From Sialis fuliginosa (taxonomy: Eukaryota > Arthropoda > Insecta > Megaloptera > Sialidae), in the NCBI GenBank assembly GCA_961205875.1, contig OY540812.1, positions 26,235,098 to 26,299,097 of the forward strand: a DNA stretch of 64,000 nucleotides, given 5' to 3'. This document shows, piece by piece, positions 1 to 35,958 of the stretch. Both the position numbers and the translations under genes were made by a program. A model generated the notes under the pieces. That model was not told where the DNA came from and searched no databases. It saw only the letters and a list, made by a program, of their open reading frames with translations. The first letter of the stretch is position 1, and each line of letters begins with the position of its first letter.

Positions 1-834
1 CTATGAATCAGAACTATAGTATCCTTAACCCTAACAGTTGATCGAGGGGAATTAATATGTTCTAAAATTCATGTTGTAACATAAGAAATAAGCAGTGACG
101 ATAATAGTAAATCAACTCAGAAAAATCGTAAATATCTCGGCTCTTGTGCGAGATAAGGTTTTTTTCCCTAAAAACCCCTGGGGTGAAACATTAACCCCCA
201 TGCGAAACCGGGGCGAATCCGCTAGGTTATTATTATTCAAAATTATTATATACAAACGAACAAATGTAGACAGATGTAAATTTTAAATTTTAAACATTAA
301 AAAATATCAACATAAATAACTGTGAATACATTTAAAAATAATATATTTTAAAAAATATTAGACGTTCACTCCATATTTTAATCTTATTTATTAGCCAACT
401 GGAGAAGTGAGAGCGCAAAACATCCGTTATTATTTTTATAATAAATTTATTACTACGATATAGGTAATAAAATAAAATAATAATATCATCAGAAAATGTA
501 ATAGTTACACTTACACAAAATAATGATCATATTACATTTGCATAATAACGTAATATAAAATTATAAAAAATGTTTATAGAAAGTATACATTGCAGTATAT
601 CAGTTGAGATATTAATTTGCCGATAAATTATAAAATTTTGTTCCATCCCATAACGAATTTCTTAAAAGTTTGTATTTATATTAAAAAAATAAATAAAAAC
701 ATTTACTAGTATTTTGGACATTCAGAATAGTAGGTACTTATTATTTATTTCATTACAGGGGACAGAATTGGGTAAAGAATAAAAAAAACATTAAAAATAT
801 TAAAAAGACAGTAAAATACTATAAAAACCAACGC

Positions 835-1400
835 AATTTTTCGAAACACAATTTTTCGAATGAATAATTTTTCGAAAAATTTAAGTTTTATTGTTCAAAT
901 TTTATTTAGTAAATAAAATATTAAGTAAAGTAATATTTGGACATTTTACGATATATTTAATAAACAAAAAACCATGTAATTTATTTAGGTACATATGTAC
1001 ATGCATATGTTAATACATATGCAGTTTGTGAGAGGACTGGCTAATCCTGTCATCAATAAACTAATTTTGTTTAATGTTAATAATAACATACGCGTAAAAA
1101 AGAACATTTATTGGTATTTAAAAAACATAAAAGAAAATCACTTAAATTGAATTTATTAATAAACCAACTTTCAAAAAACATGCAAATACAACTTAAATAT
1201 ACTTCGTAAAATGTCCAAATATTACTTTACTTTATATTTTATTTATAAATAAAATTTTGAACAGGGCGTAAAATTGTTTTGCTTTTTCTTTATTCTTTCT
1301 CATTTCTACCTTTATCAAATTTTGTATATAACTTAATTTAAAAAACCCAAAATTTAATTTTTTCGAAAAATTGTTCATTCGAAAAATTGTTTCGAAAAAC
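835..1400. repeat. Foldback element with TTTTTCGAAA ends
   Basis: The arms at about 836-953 and 1206-1400 contain matching blocks ATTTTTCGAATGAA and AAGTAAAGTAATATTTGGAC. The right arm is interrupted by about 85 bp of unrelated T-rich sequence. It is non-coding. Confidence 0.7.
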
Positions 1401-2337
1401 TCGCCGGATACCAGATTTTGCTTAGTGGGCGTCTTGCCAGTTTGCTACTAAAGAGGGACGTTTTATTATAATATTGAGTACCCCTGTACGGATATGTTTC
1501 TCAGCACATCAAGTCTGTGGTTTTAATTTTACTTTGATACTTACTTGTGTAGCGTCGGCGGCTACACAAGGTTTACTGCATTAAGTCGGTGGTGTTGTAA
1601 ATAAACCTTGCTCATTGATGCTTAGCCAATTGTTAAACATGTACCTGATTTATCATTAAAACGTTTTTTGTAACAATATTTATTACGTTTTTCTGCTACA
1701 AAATACAAAATAATTTGGCCACTTATTAAGAAAAAAAAACGGAAACTATTATACAATAAAAAAGTGTTTTTAAAGATTTAAAACTATGTTTAGGCGAATA
1801 AATATATTGTTTTTATCGTTAGTACTAACAATAAGAGATAAAGTAACTGAAAATTCCCGAAATAATTCTGGGTTTCTATTATATACTCATATTATGTAAG
1901 TTATATTGTTTTTTTTCTTCGGCCGATTTTCGTGGCCGTTGTTCACGTTGTCCTATTCATTCAATTGACGTTTCAACTCTCTTATCGAAGATTTCTTCAG
2001 AAGTGTTTCAGAAAATTGTCCACGTTTTCATCCCGAAAACTTAGTTCATACATATTGTTTGTTGTCTAAAATATTGTATGAGAAATCCAAAAGATAACTC
2101 CAGGGCTACACACTAGAGTAAAGTTAGTTAACTCACGCTTCGGTTTAGAATTTTATAACTGATTTTTTTCGGTCTCGTCTCATACAAGTGACCGAGAAAA
2201 ATCTGGTTCTCGAGTGAATTTTCTTCAAAAAATGTGTTTACATTTATTCTTATGTATAATAAACAAAGCAATTTTAAAAGATAACGAATCTAATTAGTGA
2301 CAATTTTTCTTTTTCAAGGAGACTTGTAAACAAAGAT

Positions 2338-2721
2338 GTTATCAAATTTAACTGTAAAACAGCTTAATTTGATGACAATTGGCCAATGGGTATCAAAATG
2401 GTGGATATTATTTATTTATTAATTATTTTATTATCATAGCATCTGTTTTACATTGTTTCAAATTTTGTCATTCTTTATTTTATAATTTTTGTGTCATAGT
2501 ACTTTTTAATATCCATCACTGGTTTTACTTTGTTTATTACTGGAGAATAATTTAAAAAACTATACATATTTGCAGACTTTGATAATTGAATTGATTTAAT
2601 AAAGATGTACTTGTTTTATTAGTAACATAAGTTCATGATAATTACAAAAAGAAACCCATCAATCCCAAAAAACAGTACACCTTGCTCTTAAAGCAGTCAA
2701 GACTCGTACCAGTACCTTATC
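2338..2721 (+). repeat. CTGGCACCAG repeat family, copy 1 (left end missing)
   Basis: It shares long blocks with 49327-49878 in opposite orientation: CAGCTTAATTTGATGACAAT, TACATTGTTTCAAATTTTGT, CATCACTGGTTTTACT and the AGACTxGTACCAGTACCTTA end. Confidence 0.75.
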
Positions 2722-3739
2722 CTAATTTAGAATATTTGAAAAAAATTGTATAGGATGTAGGTAAATATATAAATGACATAAATGCATACTTATGTATCAT
2801 GTAGGTACATTAAAAAAATCCTATTAGATTCTCTTGTAGGCGGCCATGAATCATAAAACCATTAAATTAAAATAGCCTATTGAAAGATCTAGTTTAAAAA
2901 TGTAATTACAATAGTGTTTGAAATTCCAAACTCTTTATAACATTAAAACATTAAATATACTTAACAATACAAAAGCCATATCATTAAACTTTCATATATT
3001 TTATACTCATCTCTTATAAACGTTAAATATATACAAAATTATCGCTTATTACAGGTGTACCTGAACTAATATAAATGGCTATAAAATTCGATTGCTCTGT
3101 TTTTTTTTTTATCATGAACAATAATCGCAACTGGGTTGTGGCGGCGAAAACTTTCAAATGAGTTTAATTTAGGTCTTTATTAATTCACATTCACCGACTT
3201 TTTTTATACGCACGACACTCTAATGTCTGTTCTATGTATAGTAGATATAATTCACCAATTGTATGCAAAATAAATGTTTTTACATTTAAACTTGTGGCAT
3301 CGCATGTATTTTTTTTCGAAATCAATTTTTTTTGCATGTGCCTGGCCGAACTATTTTCATTTTTATTGTAAAAAAAAAATTGTAAATTTTCCTTGATACG
3401 GGACTGACCTAATTTCCATTTTTATATAGCCTAAGCCCTAAACTAAGATCTTATGCCCGGTATTATAAAGGAGCCAACAAATTTGCAGACTTGCATGCAA
3501 TCAAATGGGGTATTCATTCTGTGATAGTATCTATGGATTAGTTATGGTATTTAGAGCAGTGATACTTCAACTAATTATAACACAGTTGGCGCTTCTGACC
3601 GTACAAAATAATTTTTATAATATTACCACTGTTTTAATACCGTTGGTGTTTACATACCACGCATGCGCAAAATTTGTCAAACACTTCACGAAACTTCAAG
3701 AGAACTGTTTGATACCCCATTTGAAAGTGCTTGCAAACT

Positions 3740-3900
3740 TTTAAAGTATAAAGTACGTTTAGAAGTGTAAATATATAGTTCACTGCAAGTACAATTACAT
3801 GTTATACAAGTACTGTTTAGTAAAGTTAAGTACAAGTACAATTTACTTTCAATTGAAAAGTACGTAGATACGCAAGTACTTAAGTACATCACAGTTCTTC
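3740..3900. repeat. GTACTTAAG-rich repeat, second tract
   Basis: It carries CAAGTACTTAAGTAC and several AAGTACA words, like 54370-54624. A short minus-strand open frame across it is a by-product. Confidence 0.5.
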
Positions 3901-4689
3901 ATATATCTACACAGTACCAACTTTTACATAAAAATTAAAAACTCAATAAATACCGAAGGTAGTTATTTTCTTTTGTTTTTTTAATAAATACATTGTGATT
4001 TGTGAATGCCATTTGTCTTCTGTTTTTTAAGTCATATACGAAGTAGGTATATCTACTATAATTATGTAATGAAATGTTGTTCGAAATTTGAATAAAAATT
4101 CCAGAGACTTAATAACGCAAAATATAATGGAGCATTGTATTTTATGATTAATAATTTTAGTTTATATTACGTACTAATGCTTATGCATATTTTTAAATAG
4201 ATTAGAATAAATATCTCTTGTAATTTTGTGATTATTTAGATAGTTTCGAACCCACAATTTTTTCATATATTTTGATGCTATTACATAAAACATTTTTTTT
4301 TAATTCCTTACAAAATAATTTGCCATTATTTCAATACAATTAATTATAACTATGTCCCAATATTGTCTAATCAGCTAGTAATTGATTTTCCTTGTTCCAA
4401 TCATAATAAATATCTCCAGATAACATAATCGTGAACATATATTTTCTATTGTCCGTATTACAAAACCACTAATAAGAGTTATTGTTAGAAATCTTAAATA
4501 CTGTGTACTTTTAATAATATTAATAATAATACAAGGACGTTTGAGATAGTGTTGGAAAGCATGCAGTGGAACATGATTGTTAATAAAATATGATATAATA
4601 TACCGTGCTAGGTATTAAATCTATGTGACGCATTTTTTTTTTTAAAAAGAACGTTTCGGTTGGTTATTAAATATAATTTTAAAATCTAC

Positions 4690-4960
4690 TCGCGCATTGT
4701 ACCCGGTGTTATCCGTGGATATAAATTTAATCTGTAATAAACCTATTAAACATTGTTTTGAAGATACCTCTCCGACGATTGTTTTTTTTTCGACTTTATG
4801 AAATTTACACAAAATATCCACTTTACACCTAAACTTTCGTCGTAAAACACTATTAATAAGGAAAAGCGGAATAAAATTCGTTCAGTAGTTACTGAGAAAA
4901 TCGTCCACAGACAGACAAATAGACACGGCGAAGGGCATTGTTTTATATTATGTACTTATT
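4690..4960 (+). repeat. Repeat with ACCCGGTGTTAxCC start and CAGACAGAC tail, copy 1
   Basis: It shares GGTGTTAxCCxxGGATATAA, GTAATAAACCTATTAAAxAT and GTTCAGTAGTTAC with 24785-25015, in the same orientation. The layout recalls tails of insect non-LTR elements, but no coding part is present. Confidence 0.6.
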
Positions 4961-7621
4961 ACTGTTTCTTGTGGTAGTGAAGATACCCAACATTAAATTA
5001 AGTACTTTACTTAATTATAAAACGTCATTTCAGGATATTTAATTGTCTTTTCTGCATATATTTTTAAAACACGCAGAAAAAAATAAAATTTGAATATTTT
5101 GTATGCTAAAATCAATAATATTGAACAAAAAAATTACAAACTGGGAAAAAATTTAAAAAAATAGCACCATCGCGATTGTAAAGTACCTATACAAAAAAAT
5201 CTACAATTACATAAAAAAGACCATCTACCATAAGTTGCGCATAGGTTACCAATGAGTCAATTTTGTTTTTTAAATGCGTTTTCTAGTCGTTTTAAAACGA
5301 AATTAGATTTGAAAGGCACACTTATCAATAAGGAATATATTTTCCCATTTCATTAAAATCCTTTTTTATAAAATAAAAATAAAATATTGGTTTTGGTTTA
5401 ATTTTAGGTTATGTAATAAAATACCAGCATTTTGAACTATTCAGTTTTGTAGAATTCATAATGAAGAAAATGGGTCCAAAAAGATCCAAAAAATACCATC
5501 AGTAAAGATTTTAGTTACATACTCCATGTGATGCTTAGAACGAGTTATTACAGTTCCTTACTCAAGAAATTCACAAATATGATTCCACTATATTGGATTC
5601 TGGTAAAGTTTATAGTCTGCATAAAAGGTTTTTTTAAACATAATTGATTTCTAATAATACCATTTTATCACCAAACAGATATTTCCGAAGATTCTCTTAC
5701 GTAAGTAAGAAACAGTGAATGACCCTCGCGGTTCTTCAAACGCCATTGTTTTGTCAGTCTAGTTCCTGAATACATAATTACTACTGTCAATAGTTCGTAC
5801 ACTCCGCTAAGTCTGAAAGAGAACGTCACAAGTCAGGTGAAGAAGACTAGTCATGGTCCAGAGATTTTATAACCACAATTTAGTAGCTGCGTACAGGAAT
5901 AGTGTAGTTCGTTAATGAAAATTTTGCTGTCAGAAGTAGAAACAATATCGGATATTTACTTTGTACTAAAAATACGTTATTTTGAAATTACAGGAATACA
6001 TAGAAAAAAAAATAGAATAGGTAAGTAAGTAGTTAGTTGTTGAAATTAGCGGAAAACCTTTTCAAATTACCTAAAGTAGTTACATAGTTATATTAAAAAT
6101 TTTGATATTATTTTATTTCAGTGTTACACAACTTTGTACGTTCACTGAAAATAGCAATTTTGATTAAAAGTTAAGAGCAACTATATTTCTTTAAGGTCAG
6201 AGATGAAACCTTATCAATCCTTACATTTGGGAGAGTTCAAAGCGATACGCCTTTTTCTAATTATTTTAAAATACGTTAATTTAAACTAGTTTTAGCTGTT
6301 GAAATTATCTTTTCATATACATATTAAATCTTACGCTTCTAACAATAAGTTGATAGGAATTCCGATTTAAAAACCCTGACGTACATATAGGGGGGGGGGG
6401 GGAGATATCTAATACTTGCGACTCCTTGCAAGGAGGAATGAAAATTCTTACATAATTAATGGAGAAATTAGAAATAATTCAAGTGTAGAGTTTGTACGCT
6501 GAGATCAGACTTAAAAAATACTTAAAGCCATAAAAACCGAGACGAGTCTCTTAAAAGTCTGTATATTTTATTACAGTTAGTTTAATTCGAAAGAGAACGT
6601 TTAATTCGGAGAATTAGTGTTGTTCTGGTCCAGAGATCTGAAAAGTATTCGCCATACGCATCATGAGCAAAACACCGGGCGGCCGATCGAAAGGAGTCTT
6701 AAGAGTTATTGCCAACAGTTACGCAACAAATATACTGCGTTGAGTAACTGTTCGTTAGCACAATGAAGGTCGGACGAAAAAATTAAAAGTTGTTTACAAG
6801 GTATTTGACCTGCAAAACTCTATATTGTTTTACAATTTTTAGTTTTTAATATTTATATTGCTGTAAGATTGAATGACATAATTTCTTATTGGGTATACGT
6901 CTAATTTTACTTGAAGATTATATTACTCTTATTATTCCTGACATCTCACGATCTTCTTCAAAATCCAAGAGAGACAAGTTCTTTAAAATACCTATGTCAT
7001 GTTTTCGATTGCAATTATCTCAATATTTTTGAATGTCAATAAAACCTTCATCTCTATACATAAATGAATGATCCTTTGTATGAGGCTTATAGACTCGGGA
7101 ATTACTGAACCGGTTTCAATGCGGTTTTCACCAATAGTTAGATCATTTTTCTGGGCAGTATCGTAGCTATTAATATTTTAAGATAATCTAAGATTTAACA
7201 TCACAAGACTAAAAAAATCTTTATCAAGGTGTGTTTTGTTTCCATGATGTCACAGCATACAACTGTCATTTAGGTATATAAGAACATACCAAGCCATGGA
7301 ATACAGAATTCTATAATTGGGTGGGCATGATTACTTTATGTTTAATTGAATTAATATCCCCGGGTAACACCGGGTCCAATGCGCTAATTATTAATAAATT
7401 ACACCGAGCAACAAAAAAATACATTTGTTTTGCAGCAGAGACCTGAATAGACGATCTTTTGGCGTGCTGAAACCTAATCCAATCTCCAAATTTCTCAATT
7501 AGCTCAGGTTATCCTAACCTAAAAGTGCCAAAAATAACTATTTTGGACATATTTATGAATATTTTAACAAACAGACAATTTTTTTCTAGTTTTCGTTCGC
7601 GACAACAAATAATACTAGGTA

Positions 7622-25291: not shown

Positions 25292-25296
25292 CAGCG
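25292..25296. repeat. Target-site duplication CAGCG, left copy
   Basis: The five bases just outside the left CACAGTG are CAGCG and recur exactly outside the right end at 28109-28113. A 5-bp GC-rich duplication is diagnostic for Transib/RAG-type integration. Confidence 0.93.
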
Positions 25297-25333
25297 CACA
25301 GTGTGCGATTTTGAAAATCTAGCGGGACAAAAT
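25297..25333 (+). repeat. Left terminal inverted repeat with RSS-like layout
   Basis: Positions 1-7 are CACAGTG, identical to the V(D)J recombination signal heptamer. Positions 8-30 form a 23-bp spacer, and ACAAAATTA begins at position 31, matching the nonamer consensus ACAAAAACC at its first six bases. The spacer contains the palindrome GATTTTGAAAATC (positions 11-23). It differs from the right end at positions 9, 10, 18 and 28 only. Confidence 0.93.
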
Positions 25334-25435
25334 TATTAAAACAAACAATTCGATTAAATTTCATTATGTATATATTTGTAAATAAAAATAGATTATAAAA
25401 ATATATAATTTACATAATTTCTGTATTTATTTATA

Positions 25436-27837
25436 TCAATTATATTCACTGTCAGTTGTATCATCTGAATCACTAGTATTATGATCACTATCATTTTGTT
25501 GCTGTCCTTCTGTTATTACACTAATATTTGGTGGCTGTATTAATTTCAAAACAGCCGGATCAATTGGTAATGCTTTTGTCTTCTCGACTTTCTTCAAAGA
25601 CGTTATAACAGGGTCGGAGCTTATCAGCAAATTGTGCAGAATGTCCGTATTTGTCAACTTTATTGACACTTTTCGTGAATATTCGAGCCGGAATTTTCTA
25701 AATTCTTTATGTCGAGACTCCTGCGCTTCTTCAGACATTTGTCCAATAGGAAGAAGAAAGTTTTGTATTACTTCTGGCCCATGTAGCAATATCTTATGAA
25801 GAGTAACGGGCATTGGGTACCAGTGGTACAATGATATGTATAAATCTGCGGTTTCGTCACAATATGATTTAAATGTATCTATGTTAATCTCATATCCTGA
25901 TGTCAATGTCCGTAGTATAACGTAAAACCTTTCAATAAGAATTTTATTTACACCTGTTATTTCAGCAGTTATTGTAGGGTTCTTAAAAAATTTCCTTGCA
26001 CTATTCCCATCATTGGTGTTTCCACCTCCTTGTTTGGGCGTGTCTAATAATAAGCCTGTTTTTGACCTAAACTGGTCTATTATGTGTTTTTTTCTGGCCG
26101 CAACGCTTTCTTTTTCTTCTGCCGTGCGGCATTGCCATTTCTGCACGTTTAACCGATAGGATATGTGTAAAATACACTCCATTAATCTTATCTGGGCATG
26201 CAGTGTAGATAAGCCCCAAGAAAAGTTCTCAGCATCGCTTTTTCGTTTTCTTATAAGTTCTAAGTTATTCATGTCTTTAGGAGTCGCTTGACAAATATAA
26301 CATTTTTGAGTGGCCTTATTGAATGCCAAAATGTTGCAAACTTTGCCATCGACCATGGTTTCTTCAAATATGTGAGCTACTTCGATCACAGTACCGTTAA
26401 ACTCAACAATTGTCGGTGAAATTGTTGCAATTTGATCACGGACACTTTTAAATTCTTCTAATACTAGCTGCTCAGTCTCCTTTGCAAATATAAATTTAAT
26501 AGGCCTGCAATATGACGTCGATGACGGTCGGGGGTTCTGCCATAATATAACCCTGTTATTTATTTCATTGAACCCGAATATTTGTAAAGGCACTAATGAT
26601 GTTGTCAAAACATTTGCGTCTTCAAAATTCTCCGTGTCGGCTTGTTGTTTGTAACGACTTTGTCCACCACTACCATCACACCCCCATTTAAAAATTATTG
26701 TTATGTTTCTTATTTTTAATACTCCATCAACAATAATTCTATCCAAAACTTCATTTTGAACTAAACTTAGTCTTTTTATAGTCAAGTCAACAATTGACTG
26801 TAACTTTACTTCAGCCATTGATTCATTGATTATACAATCTTCATTGGGTGGATAACATAATGTTTTGGCATTTTTTATTTGTTCATAGGCTGGGTAAATA
26901 TTAAGCCCTTTTGCTTTGGCTGATTTTCTTATAATATTGTATCTTCGCTGGCTCAATTTCGCTCCATGTATTAAGGCCAATGCTTCTTCAGGCGAATACT
27001 TTGGTATATTTTTTTGTTTATCTGCTTTTTGAACAGCTTTTTTTATTTTGGTCGCTCTTTTCGGACTCGAAACTAATTTCCCGAGCATAGAAGCAGCATT
27101 CCTTTTACCTGACTGCCTTAGCTTTATATTGGTTGCATGAGTCAACTCGGTTAAAGTACTTCCCGTAACTAAAGATTTAACCTTCCTCGATTTCGATTTT
27201 AATCCACTTAAATCGAAGTCTTTTTTTGGTCGACCAGGTTTTCGCACACTTTGTGATCCACTTGTAGTCGGTATATCAATATTTTGTATAGATATACTGG
27301 TATTCAACCATTCCTCGTGCTTATTTAAAAAGTCTTTCTTACTGCGATGACACGATCGCCACCTTTTATTGAAATTCGTCATAAATGAGTGAATGACACG
27401 ATTCAGTTCTTGAAGCATTGGCTGAGAACAGTGCTGAAGATTGAATTTGGCTCTAACATAATCCAGAATTATATTTTCAGGCTTTGCTTCAGACGTTTGA
27501 GAGTTATCATCATCATTTTTCAATTTTTCAAATATTTCTCTTTTTGTCAAAGTTAGTATCGCACCTGTTAAAAAATAAATAGTTTGAAAAACTGCAAATA
27601 TCTGCACGAAAACATTAATCCTACTTCTTCTATATAATATTTTGAATGAAATAAGTACAAAATCAGAGCATACAAAGGCATACAAAATTTTTGGCAATCA
27701 AAGAAAATCAATATTTTAAAAATAAAAACTTACTATTTTCTTATTGAAATTAATCGAAAATTTATACAAAATAATGAACTCAAGCATATTATATCGTATT
27801 AATAAATAAACTACATACCTTGTTGGGAAATATCCAT
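25436..27837 (-). CDS. RAG1-like transposase, 2 exons, 715 aa
   Basis: Exon 1 is 27819-27837 (ATG at 27837, encoding MDISQQ plus one base). The intron is 27565-27818 (GTATGT...TAACAG). Exon 2 is 25436-27564. The joined frame gives 715 aa. By alignment from memory to the vertebrate RAG1 core, D303 (in GCDGSGG) matches D600, D412 (in MVDGKV) matches D708, and E622 (in AQESRHK) matches E962. Spacing agrees: 109 versus 108 residues between the two Asp, and exactly 21 versus 20 from the second zinc His to the Glu. Zinc ligands C428-x-x-C431 and H596/H601 match C727/C730 and H937/H942. An AT-hook-like GRPKK lies at 117-121 and an acidic tail at about 698-713. The predicted role is cutting at the CACAGTG ends and inserting the element. 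An alternative start at 27697 would translate the intron into a hydrophobic leader, so I reject it. Confidence 0.9.
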
Positions 27838-28071
27838 TGCACAAAAACTGATCACAAATGTTTATTTTCACAATAACGTCCTTTTCAACCGAGCGTGTAG
27901 ATACTACTGACCATACCTTTTGAACAGAACAGGTATAAACCGGTAATTGTAAAGCGTCTGGCTTAAAAAGCCTGGCGCCTATTATTATTATACTTGGTAA
28001 ATGTTTTGTCTAGTTCATTATCTTCGATTCTAAGGTATTATAAGTTAAATTTAAGATAGTTTTTTTTTTAT

Positions 28072-28108
28072 ATTTTGTCCTGCTAGATTTGCAAAATCTT
28101 ACACTGTG
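28072..28108 (-). repeat. Right terminal inverted repeat with RSS-like layout
   Basis: Read on the minus strand this end starts CACAGTG, followed by a 23-bp spacer and ACAAAATAT, so heptamer, spacer length and nonamer-like hexamer match the left end. Both ends are therefore of the 23-spacer type; there is no 12-spacer end. The poly(A)-like tract just inside differs from the left end, so the inverted repeat stops at 37 bp. Confidence 0.93.
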
Positions 28109-28113
28109 CAGCG
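28109..28113. repeat. Target-site duplication CAGCG, right copy
   Basis: Identical to 25292-25296. The following GC-rich stretch (to about 28150) is the continuation of the host target sequence. Confidence 0.93.
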
Positions 28114-33770: not shown

Positions 33771-35958
33771 CTATCCAACAGCTCCGTTCTCCTGGTAAGG
33801 TCCAGTAACAACACATGGATGCATTGGGAATAATGTAGTCCAACTCATTGTAGTCAATGTAGGAGCACGAATCATTACTTGTTTTCCGTTCTTTCCGCTA
33901 GTAGTTGTCGCTTCTACTAAAGCAGCTAGGTCTGTATTTGTCTCTGAAATATCTCCATCTTTTTCGTTATTTGCTTGATTCTGAGTGTGCGTAGTGTTTG
34001 CATTATTTGTTGAAGTAGTAATACCTAATTTACGTAATCTCATCTTTTGCTCCCATTCCTCCAGTCCGTGTTTTGGCCTATTTAAATTCCGGTGTTGATA
34101 GAATACTAGTGAGATACGAGTTGGTGATAATCTATTAGGTTTTTTTAGAGCTGTTGTTGCATGCATCTCATGTTTCGCACACTCAAACAAAACACTGCCA
34201 TGTCCTAAGGCAATGGCAACACCACCCATCTGAGAATCCTTAAAACATTCTTCATTGTCAGAGAAATCTGTTACTTCACCTATCGGTTCACTTTTCGGTT
34301 GTTCAGGAACGTAAGGAGGCACGCCGAATGGTGGATAAGAGAACCATGGGTTTGTTGGTGCTACTGGTGCATTCTGGCACCAGTTTGGTGCTCCGTTCCA
34401 ATTCCCTGGGAAATTTTGATATCCAGAATATGGATTATAACAGCTGTTATTTCTTAAATATTCTTCACGTTTAATACTGTTAGAGTAATCTAAATTTGGA
34501 TAGTTTAAATGATTTGCTTCATACGGATTGTAATGGCCATATGGAGATGCAAAACGACTCTGAAAGTTATTGTAACCAGGACCAGGATAAGAGCCTGTAT
34601 AAGGATTCACTGTGTTAGCTCCTGTATGATAATCAGAAAACCCATGCGCAGGCTTCATTTCTTCTGGTATATGAGACCAGTTGGTATTTAAGTTATTTGC
34701 AGGAAATGAAATATCAGGAAATCGTAAGTTCATATTAGGATTATAACCTTGAGAATTTGTAGTCTGATTATTGTTTATATTTGGAACGCAACTGTTGTCA
34801 TGGTTTATGTTTTTAATCTCTTGAGGAGGTTGTGGTTTTAGAAACGTTGATGCACTGTTTGCATTCTGATCTATATTATGCTGGTTACGAGAAGGTGGGC
34901 GACCCTTTGGTATTCTGAATGGAGAAATTTCATTTTCAAATGAATGATTAATGTTTGTATTCCAGTTTGTCGACTTTTCATTTGCAGGAGTAATTGGAGA
35001 CTCTAATTTTTTCTGTTGTTGAAAATTCGGGTTACTGTTTGTGTCAATTTGTTTACCCCAGCTATTGTTTGGTACTACTGAATTAATATTTTCATTATAC
35101 GGTGTGTACATTCGATTCATTCCTGTATTGCCAGATATATTTTCATTTGTTTTAGATGTTTTAGGTGTACTTGTGTACATAGGAGAATTTAGATTATATT
35201 TGTTATTAGGAACTGATTTATTTTCAACAGTATTTTGATTATTTGTTTTAAGAATATCAGTCTCATTCATGTTTAAATACATATCCATATTTTCGTTATT
35301 TTTGTTAGATTTTACTTGTCGATATTCATTTCTTGATTCCGGTGTATTTATTTCTGTGCTACTGTTTGGTTCATGGTTCATACTGGCAGCTGACATTCCG
35401 GAATGTACACTTGAATTCGAACCTGCTATAGAATGAACATCACTTTCTGCATTAATGTTATTCATTGTTGTACTATCCGGATCTTCTTTAACTTCTTTAA
35501 ATGTATTACCGTAATTATAATCCCAAGAGTTGTAAAACATATTTTGCCGTTTTGATTCAAGCCATGGCTGGTTTTGACCATATTGTGATCCATAAGTATT
35601 TTGATACTGATTTTGAGGACCGTAAAGACTAGAGTTTTCGTAAGACCAGTTTGAGTACATTGTAGGAGAATCTAGAACGGTGCTGGAAACTTGAGAGCTT
35701 TGTAATTGAGCATCAGTGAAGTTATCTAGCATAGACACCATGTCCAGCAGTGGCCCACCTTGGTTTATGGGAGTCTGCGCTCTCGGAGAACGTGGTGAAT
35801 TATTACCATGATGTTGGCTGCCTGTACTACGAGGGGAATGATTTCCAGATATGTCTTTTTTATTAATCACAGCATCTGGCTCATCTTCTTTGCGTTTTTT
35901 ACCATGACGTCGGCAAGGTTGTAGAGGAACGGAACGGACTCTAACTTCACAAGGATAT
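33771..35958 (-). CDS. Tet: Tet last exon I (Asn-rich insert and catalytic C-half, residues 1230-1958)
   Basis: It opens with [20 protein letters not shown] and a KKRK basic patch. A long Asn/Ser/Tyr/Pro-rich insert follows (about 1260-1780) with a GRPPSR AT-hook-like motif. The fold resumes at [20 protein letters not shown], with H1829 as the third iron ligand and [10 protein letters not shown] carrying R1844. The tail ends [10 protein letters not shown] and TAG at 33771-33773. No frame break is seen. Confidence 0.97.

Follow-up and report, generated by a model that had tools for sequence, protein, structure and literature searches.

The window analysed here is a 64,000-nucleotide stretch of the Sialis fuliginosa genome (GenBank assembly GCA_961205875.1, contig OY540812.1, positions 26,235,098 to 26,299,097 of the forward strand). 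A complete DNA transposon of 2812 bp occupies positions 25297-28108 of the window, with its gene on the minus strand. The first-pass annotation had given this element 37-bp ends and exact CAGCG target duplications, and both are borne out. The two ends are 33/37 identical, and the inverted repeat extends to 54 bp at 81% identity. An end pattern with N at the four differing positions, permitting up to 3 mismatches, matched the window twice, exactly at the two element ends, and gave 0 matches in 100 shuffles. The features of the locus, in window positions, are:

25292-25296, no strand: target site duplication CAGCG, left, exact
25297-28108, minus: complete Transib transposon, 2812 bp; 31 full-length gapless genome copies, the window copy counted
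25297-25333, plus: 37-bp terminal inverted repeat on the gene 3' side, CACAGTG at 25297-25303
25327-25335, plus: nonamer-like ACAAAATTA, 23 bp inside the heptamer, 6/9 to ACAAAAACC; putative function
25426-25431, minus: AATAAA, possible polyadenylation signal directly past the stop
25436-27564, minus: second coding exon, ending in stop TGA; encodes the transposase with its DDE residues (D303/D412/E622 in 715-aa numbering)
27002-27253, minus: region resembling a nonamer-binding domain (NBD), with GRP motif, exon-2 residues 105-188
27565-27818, minus: predicted GT...AG intron, 254 nt; splice dinucleotides present in 31/31 copies
27819-27837, minus: predicted coding exon 1, MDISQQ plus the first base of the next codon
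28070-28078, minus: nonamer-like ACAAAATAT, 23 bp inside the heptamer, 6/9; putative function
28072-28108, minus: 37-bp terminal inverted repeat on the gene 5' side, with minus-strand CACAGTG at 28102-28108
28109-28113, no strand: target site duplication CAGCG, right, exact

One long open frame runs along the minus strand of the element. Predicted exon 1 (19 coding nucleotides, ATG at 27837) and exon 2 together give a protein of 715 aa. The open, RAG1-core-like transposase proposed at first reading is supported. The catalytic and zinc-site residues named then (D303, D412, E622, C428/C431 and H596/H601) were followed in an alignment of the element protein with 39 of its 120 listed relatives. 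In exon-2 numbering, which is the number in the 715-aa protein minus 6, D297, E616, C422, C425, H590 and H595 are identical in 40/40 rows and D406 in 39/40. All seven residues of the DDE triad and the C2/H2 zinc site are kept in 31/31 genome copies. A single open reading frame (ORF) of at least 150 aa overlaps the element; no second gene, and no RAG2-like gene inside the ends, was found among ORFs of this size, in agreement with the claim that RAG2 is missing.

Family assignment and recent spread

When the PDB was searched with phmmer, the best match was the transposase of Helicoverpa zea Transib (HzTransib; E 6.5e-119), aligned across 190-658, followed by RAG1 (2.3e-07). The profile of the 40-row alignment gave the same order, with HzTransib at 8.6e-193, ProtoRAG RAG1L at 1.5e-12 and RAG1 at 6.6e-12. 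The Pfam RAG1 family was matched by the element protein at 5.8e-9 and by 28/40 alignment rows at E <=10. An AlphaFold model of the transposase (mean predicted local distance difference test score, pLDDT, 85.8) had HzTransib as its closest structure match. A protein database search, in which the 7988 candidates with most words in common were scored, returned 332 relatives, of which 120 were listed. Species-named relatives among the matches listed were all insects (Diabrotica, Temnothorax, Sitophilus, Zophobas, Leptopilina, Sipha and Spodoptera); the initial impression of an insect-like host is supported.

In a 33-row tree that included 25 of the 120 listed relatives, three RAG rows, which are fragments, were separated from 30 Transib rows with support of 100/100 (the root is drawn for display only). 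The element protein grouped with P0002 and P0004 (100/99) and then with P0003 (100/99); support for P0002 as its sole partner was weak (82/20). Thus, the homology search and phylogeny proposed with the first-pass annotation place HzTransib nearest and group the element with the Transibs, apart from RAG1 and ProtoRAG.

These results bear on two other assignments. The element might descend from the RAGL (ProtoRAG/TransibSU) lineage by loss of RAG2 and represent a transitional RAG1-only form. We rejected this origin as very improbable, since the PDB search, structure comparison and tree all lie nearer to Transib than to RAG1L or RAG1. A distinct superfamily resembling RAG1 by convergence alone has a negligible probability: no point in its support was found, and the full-core alignment to HzTransib, together with the common fold, already refutes it. 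The ends, duplications, copy spread, family and fold are all shown by the present data. The separate, Transib-related family suggested earlier is a new, young family inside Transib, not one outside it; it is otherwise a typical Transib and no new type of element. In the literature searched on Transib generally we noticed no description of the 2812-bp family, which is not proof of novelty. The label of a RAG1-like transposon without RAG2 is a correct description that applies to Transib in general. We trimmed the earlier interpretation in that the element is a Transib: the absence of RAG2 is normal for this group, and the element bears on the origin of the V(D)J recombinase only as much as other Transibs do.

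To count copies, we surveyed the genome (392 Mb, 20 contigs). The whole exon-2 protein was found at 99-100% identity in 31 places, and the 31 DNA copies compared were all full-length, 2812 bp and gapless. CACAGTG is present at both ends in 31/31, refuting its absence from other copies. The 30 full-length copies elsewhere in the genome show transposition, in keeping with the claim that the element is complete. The 5-bp duplications are exact in 29/31 copies, and 28 exact target sites have the composition C26 G23 N C24 G26, a GC-rich consensus of CGNCG. Among 30 copies compared there are 28 variable sites, with a mean pairwise difference of 7.6 and a maximum of 14; 44 of 435 pairs are identical, and identical copies occur at different sites in groups of up to 8. 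One end had at least 37 genome matches, comprising the 31 full-length copies, 2 longer ones and 4 others, so that no large family of miniature inverted-repeat transposable elements was seen in the search with this one of the two ends.

Exon 2 is stop-free in 19/31 copies. A nonsense change at exon-2 codon 248 is common to 9/31 copies and one at codon 501 to 3/31, and each of these 12 copies lies at its own site with its own exact duplication. As the nonsense lineages multiplied at separate sites, we infer that broken copies were moved by transposase acting in trans; they would offer a snapshot of trans-mobilisation inside a young burst. Older relics of the family (L041 and L042) are 88.5-94.1% identical over the matched stretches, so that the burst is fresh while the family itself has been in the genome for some time.

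The family could by now be dead, with the burst finished and the copies silenced or broken. The nonsense codons in 12/31 copies and the existence of the older relics speak for this, and we consider it unlikely in view of the 19 copies stop-free in exon 2, the intact CACAGTG ends of all 31, and the groups of identical copies at different sites. Several observations weigh against our preferred interpretation of a young, autonomous transposon. The splice of the transposase gene is a prediction. Two full-length copies (L003 and L018) lack matching duplications. All four combinations occur at six pairs of variable sites, with one site common to every pair, which implies some exchange among copies or a single recurrent change; gene conversion could partly explain the near-identity of copies. 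As a separate observation, the mismatched duplications of L003 and L018 possibly reflect ectopic exchange between copies.

In conclusion, we regard the Transib identity and recent spread of the 2812-bp family as nearly certain. The window copy belongs to the Transib superfamily and is a cut-and-paste transposon, very young and predicted to be autonomous. In the mechanism we propose, the 715-aa transposase encoded by the spliced gene most likely binds the two element ends and, by analogy with H. zea Transib and RAG1, would act as a dimer and cleave by nick and hairpin at D303/D412/E622. Insertion would take place at CGNCG-like 5-bp sites, and intact copies would supply the transposase that moves the two nonsense lineages in trans.

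Terminal signals and the NBD-like region

At both ends of the element, CACAGTG is followed by 23 bp and then ACAAAA, a layout like that of a 23-bp recombination signal sequence (23-RSS). The vertebrate RSS consensus is given as CACAGTG, 12 or 23 bp, and ACAAAAACC (excerpt of PMC8289069).

The genome also contains a second young Transib family of 2875 bp (L031-L035), with ends CACATACG and CACATAGG and a protein 42% identical to that of the window element. Of five copies taken, three have exact duplications (L031, L033 and L034) and two do not (L032 and L035). The ends of this family align without gaps with those of the 2812-bp family, with CAAAA at the same offset. The four ends have CACA in common, as well as GATTT (11-15) and the block TAG..GG.CAAAA (24-36). 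This block is thus found at the nonamer offset in two families.

The resemblance to the nonamer itself is less telling. A score of 6/9 at a fixed offset has a chance of 0.012 in the local base composition, and other A-rich offsets score equal or higher in 3/4 ends, namely both ends of the 2812-bp family and one of the 2875-bp family. The second-family ends score 6 and 5 of 9. We therefore tempered the use of the nonamer match as strong evidence; the offset shared with the second family is better evidence.

The candidate reader of the inner block is the NBD-like region. Its GRP motif, at exon-2 residues 111-113, has each letter in 39/40 rows and directly precedes the stretch alignable with the RAG1 dimerisation and DNA-binding domain. 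In the PDB search, the profile of the region was collinear with the RAG1 NBD at 6.5 and 5.8 bits, and no NBD-only chain was listed by the profile search up to E 10. The profile of residues 105-188 scored 10.6 bits against the zebrafish RAG1 NBD, a value reached by 0/2000 shuffles (best 9.6), and 8.7 bits against the mouse RAG1 NBD, reached by 2/2000 (best 16.9). Longer RAG1 fragments gave 8.8 and 7.2 bits, each reached by 1/2000 shuffles. The VIA rows for RAG1 begin at residue 186-189. Folded alone, the N-terminal part gave a poor model (pLDDT 68.2), with which Foldseek found no match at E 0.001 or better. On these results, the link of the region to the RAG1 NBD is likely, but weakly supported.

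Our guess, by analogy with H. zea Transib and RAG1, assigns the CAC heptamer to the core and the inner TAG..GG.CAAAA block to the NBD-like region. The fuller proposal is that both ends carry a complete 23-RSS-like signal, that a RAG1-homologous NBD-like domain reads its inner block, and that the spacing is kept in the 42%-identical second family. We hold this proposal tentatively, rating it somewhat below an even chance. If true, the family would be a RAG2-free system of recent spread in which one protein recognises heptamer and nonamer in bipartite fashion; RSS architecture would then need no RAG2 and may predate it. Note that Transib ends have been described as symmetric or asymmetric with conserved elements, and that an NBD in Transibs was already reported in 2022 (both in excerpts of PMC9435367). 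For Transibs, a figure legend in a review lists 12/23 pairs as well as nonamer-like blocks located at 20-22 bp (PMC8355894, legend). As bipartite Transib ends and an NBD-like domain are already published, the present data support a known picture. The near-identical copies, NBD-like region and 23-RSS-like ends together offer a practical substrate for the question of RAG2-free heptamer/nonamer recognition. The family is worth keeping as young, possibly active by prediction, and unusually RSS-like at its ends.

Other transposons and a neighbouring gene

The ends of a third and a fourth Transib family (L036 and L037) were looked for and none were found. L037 has a stop-free Transib-like frame of 746 aa (1874-3904, minus) with 34% identity, forms the longest Transib end branch in the 33-row tree, and yielded neither ends nor duplications. 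It may represent either an old element or a gene adopted by the host.

Two further copies of 4183 bp (L038, element at 803-4985, and L039, at 828-5010) are flanked by different duplications, TGGCG and CGGCG. In the 904-aa frame of these copies, a PF20700 Mutator-like domain (profile positions 3-357 of 357, E 1.3e-67) is fused to a Transib core. Gene capture was rejected as the explanation: a separate TTAA-site transposon inserted in the Transib, and part of both was lost. The insert is matched by L046 (99.94%) and L047 (99.89%), two open donor copies of ~2775 bp that are 99.9% alike and represent a PF20700 transposon with ends starting GGCAGTAGTC. L046 has TTAA on both sides, and the pairing of a TTAA site with a Mutator-like domain seems noteworthy. 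The fused 904-aa query returned 963 relatives; among the 120 listed none covers more than 52% of the query, and therefore no listed relative holds both the PF20700 and the Transib halves.

At 33771-35870 (minus) in the window, an ORF matches the Tet_JBP oxygenase domain (PF12851, E 7.7e-10) and belongs to a TET gene that lies ~5.7 kb away from the transposon. It had 74 matches, the three named relatives being Dufourea (a bee), Microctonus (a braconid wasp) and Carabus (a ground beetle), which points to an insect host without favouring one order.

Comparison with known systems

Transib is a known type of insect transposon whose transposase has a common ancestry with the recombinase that rearranges vertebrate antibody genes. 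It was reportedly described in 2005. It is characterised as having a single gene similar to RAG1 (excerpt of PMC7204232). RAG1-RAG2 and ProtoRAG share 15-21% identity with the window element, which has no RAG2 among ORFs of at least 150 aa. Its ends are equally spaced and therefore have no 12/23 asymmetry, unlike those of RAG1-RAG2 and ProtoRAG. Transib Subgroup II is described as having lost the alpha11-alpha12 RAG2-binding region and the CTT2 tail (excerpt of PMC9435367).

Movement is described in print for Hztransib in vitro (excerpt of PMC6941560) and for Transib1 in flies (excerpt of PMC12974806). Drosophila melanogaster Transib1 resembles the window element as a Transib with recent near-identical copies and 5-bp duplications (PMC12974806), a likeness by description only and in another host. 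Hztransib (PDB 6pqn, 6pqr, 6pqu, 6pqx, 6pqy and 6pr5) has a transposase 37-41% identical to that of the window element. Its solved chain begins at the core, without a counterpart of the ~190-aa N-terminal part that carries GRP. Its ends are described as having little or no nonamer similarity (excerpt of PMC8289069), whereas those of the window element score 6/9. Hztransib is given as 3518 bp with 489 aa deduced, compared with 2812 bp and 715 aa here. Closest among the matches listed is P0002, an unnamed Transib-like protein of 675 aa with 69% identity over 95% of the query.
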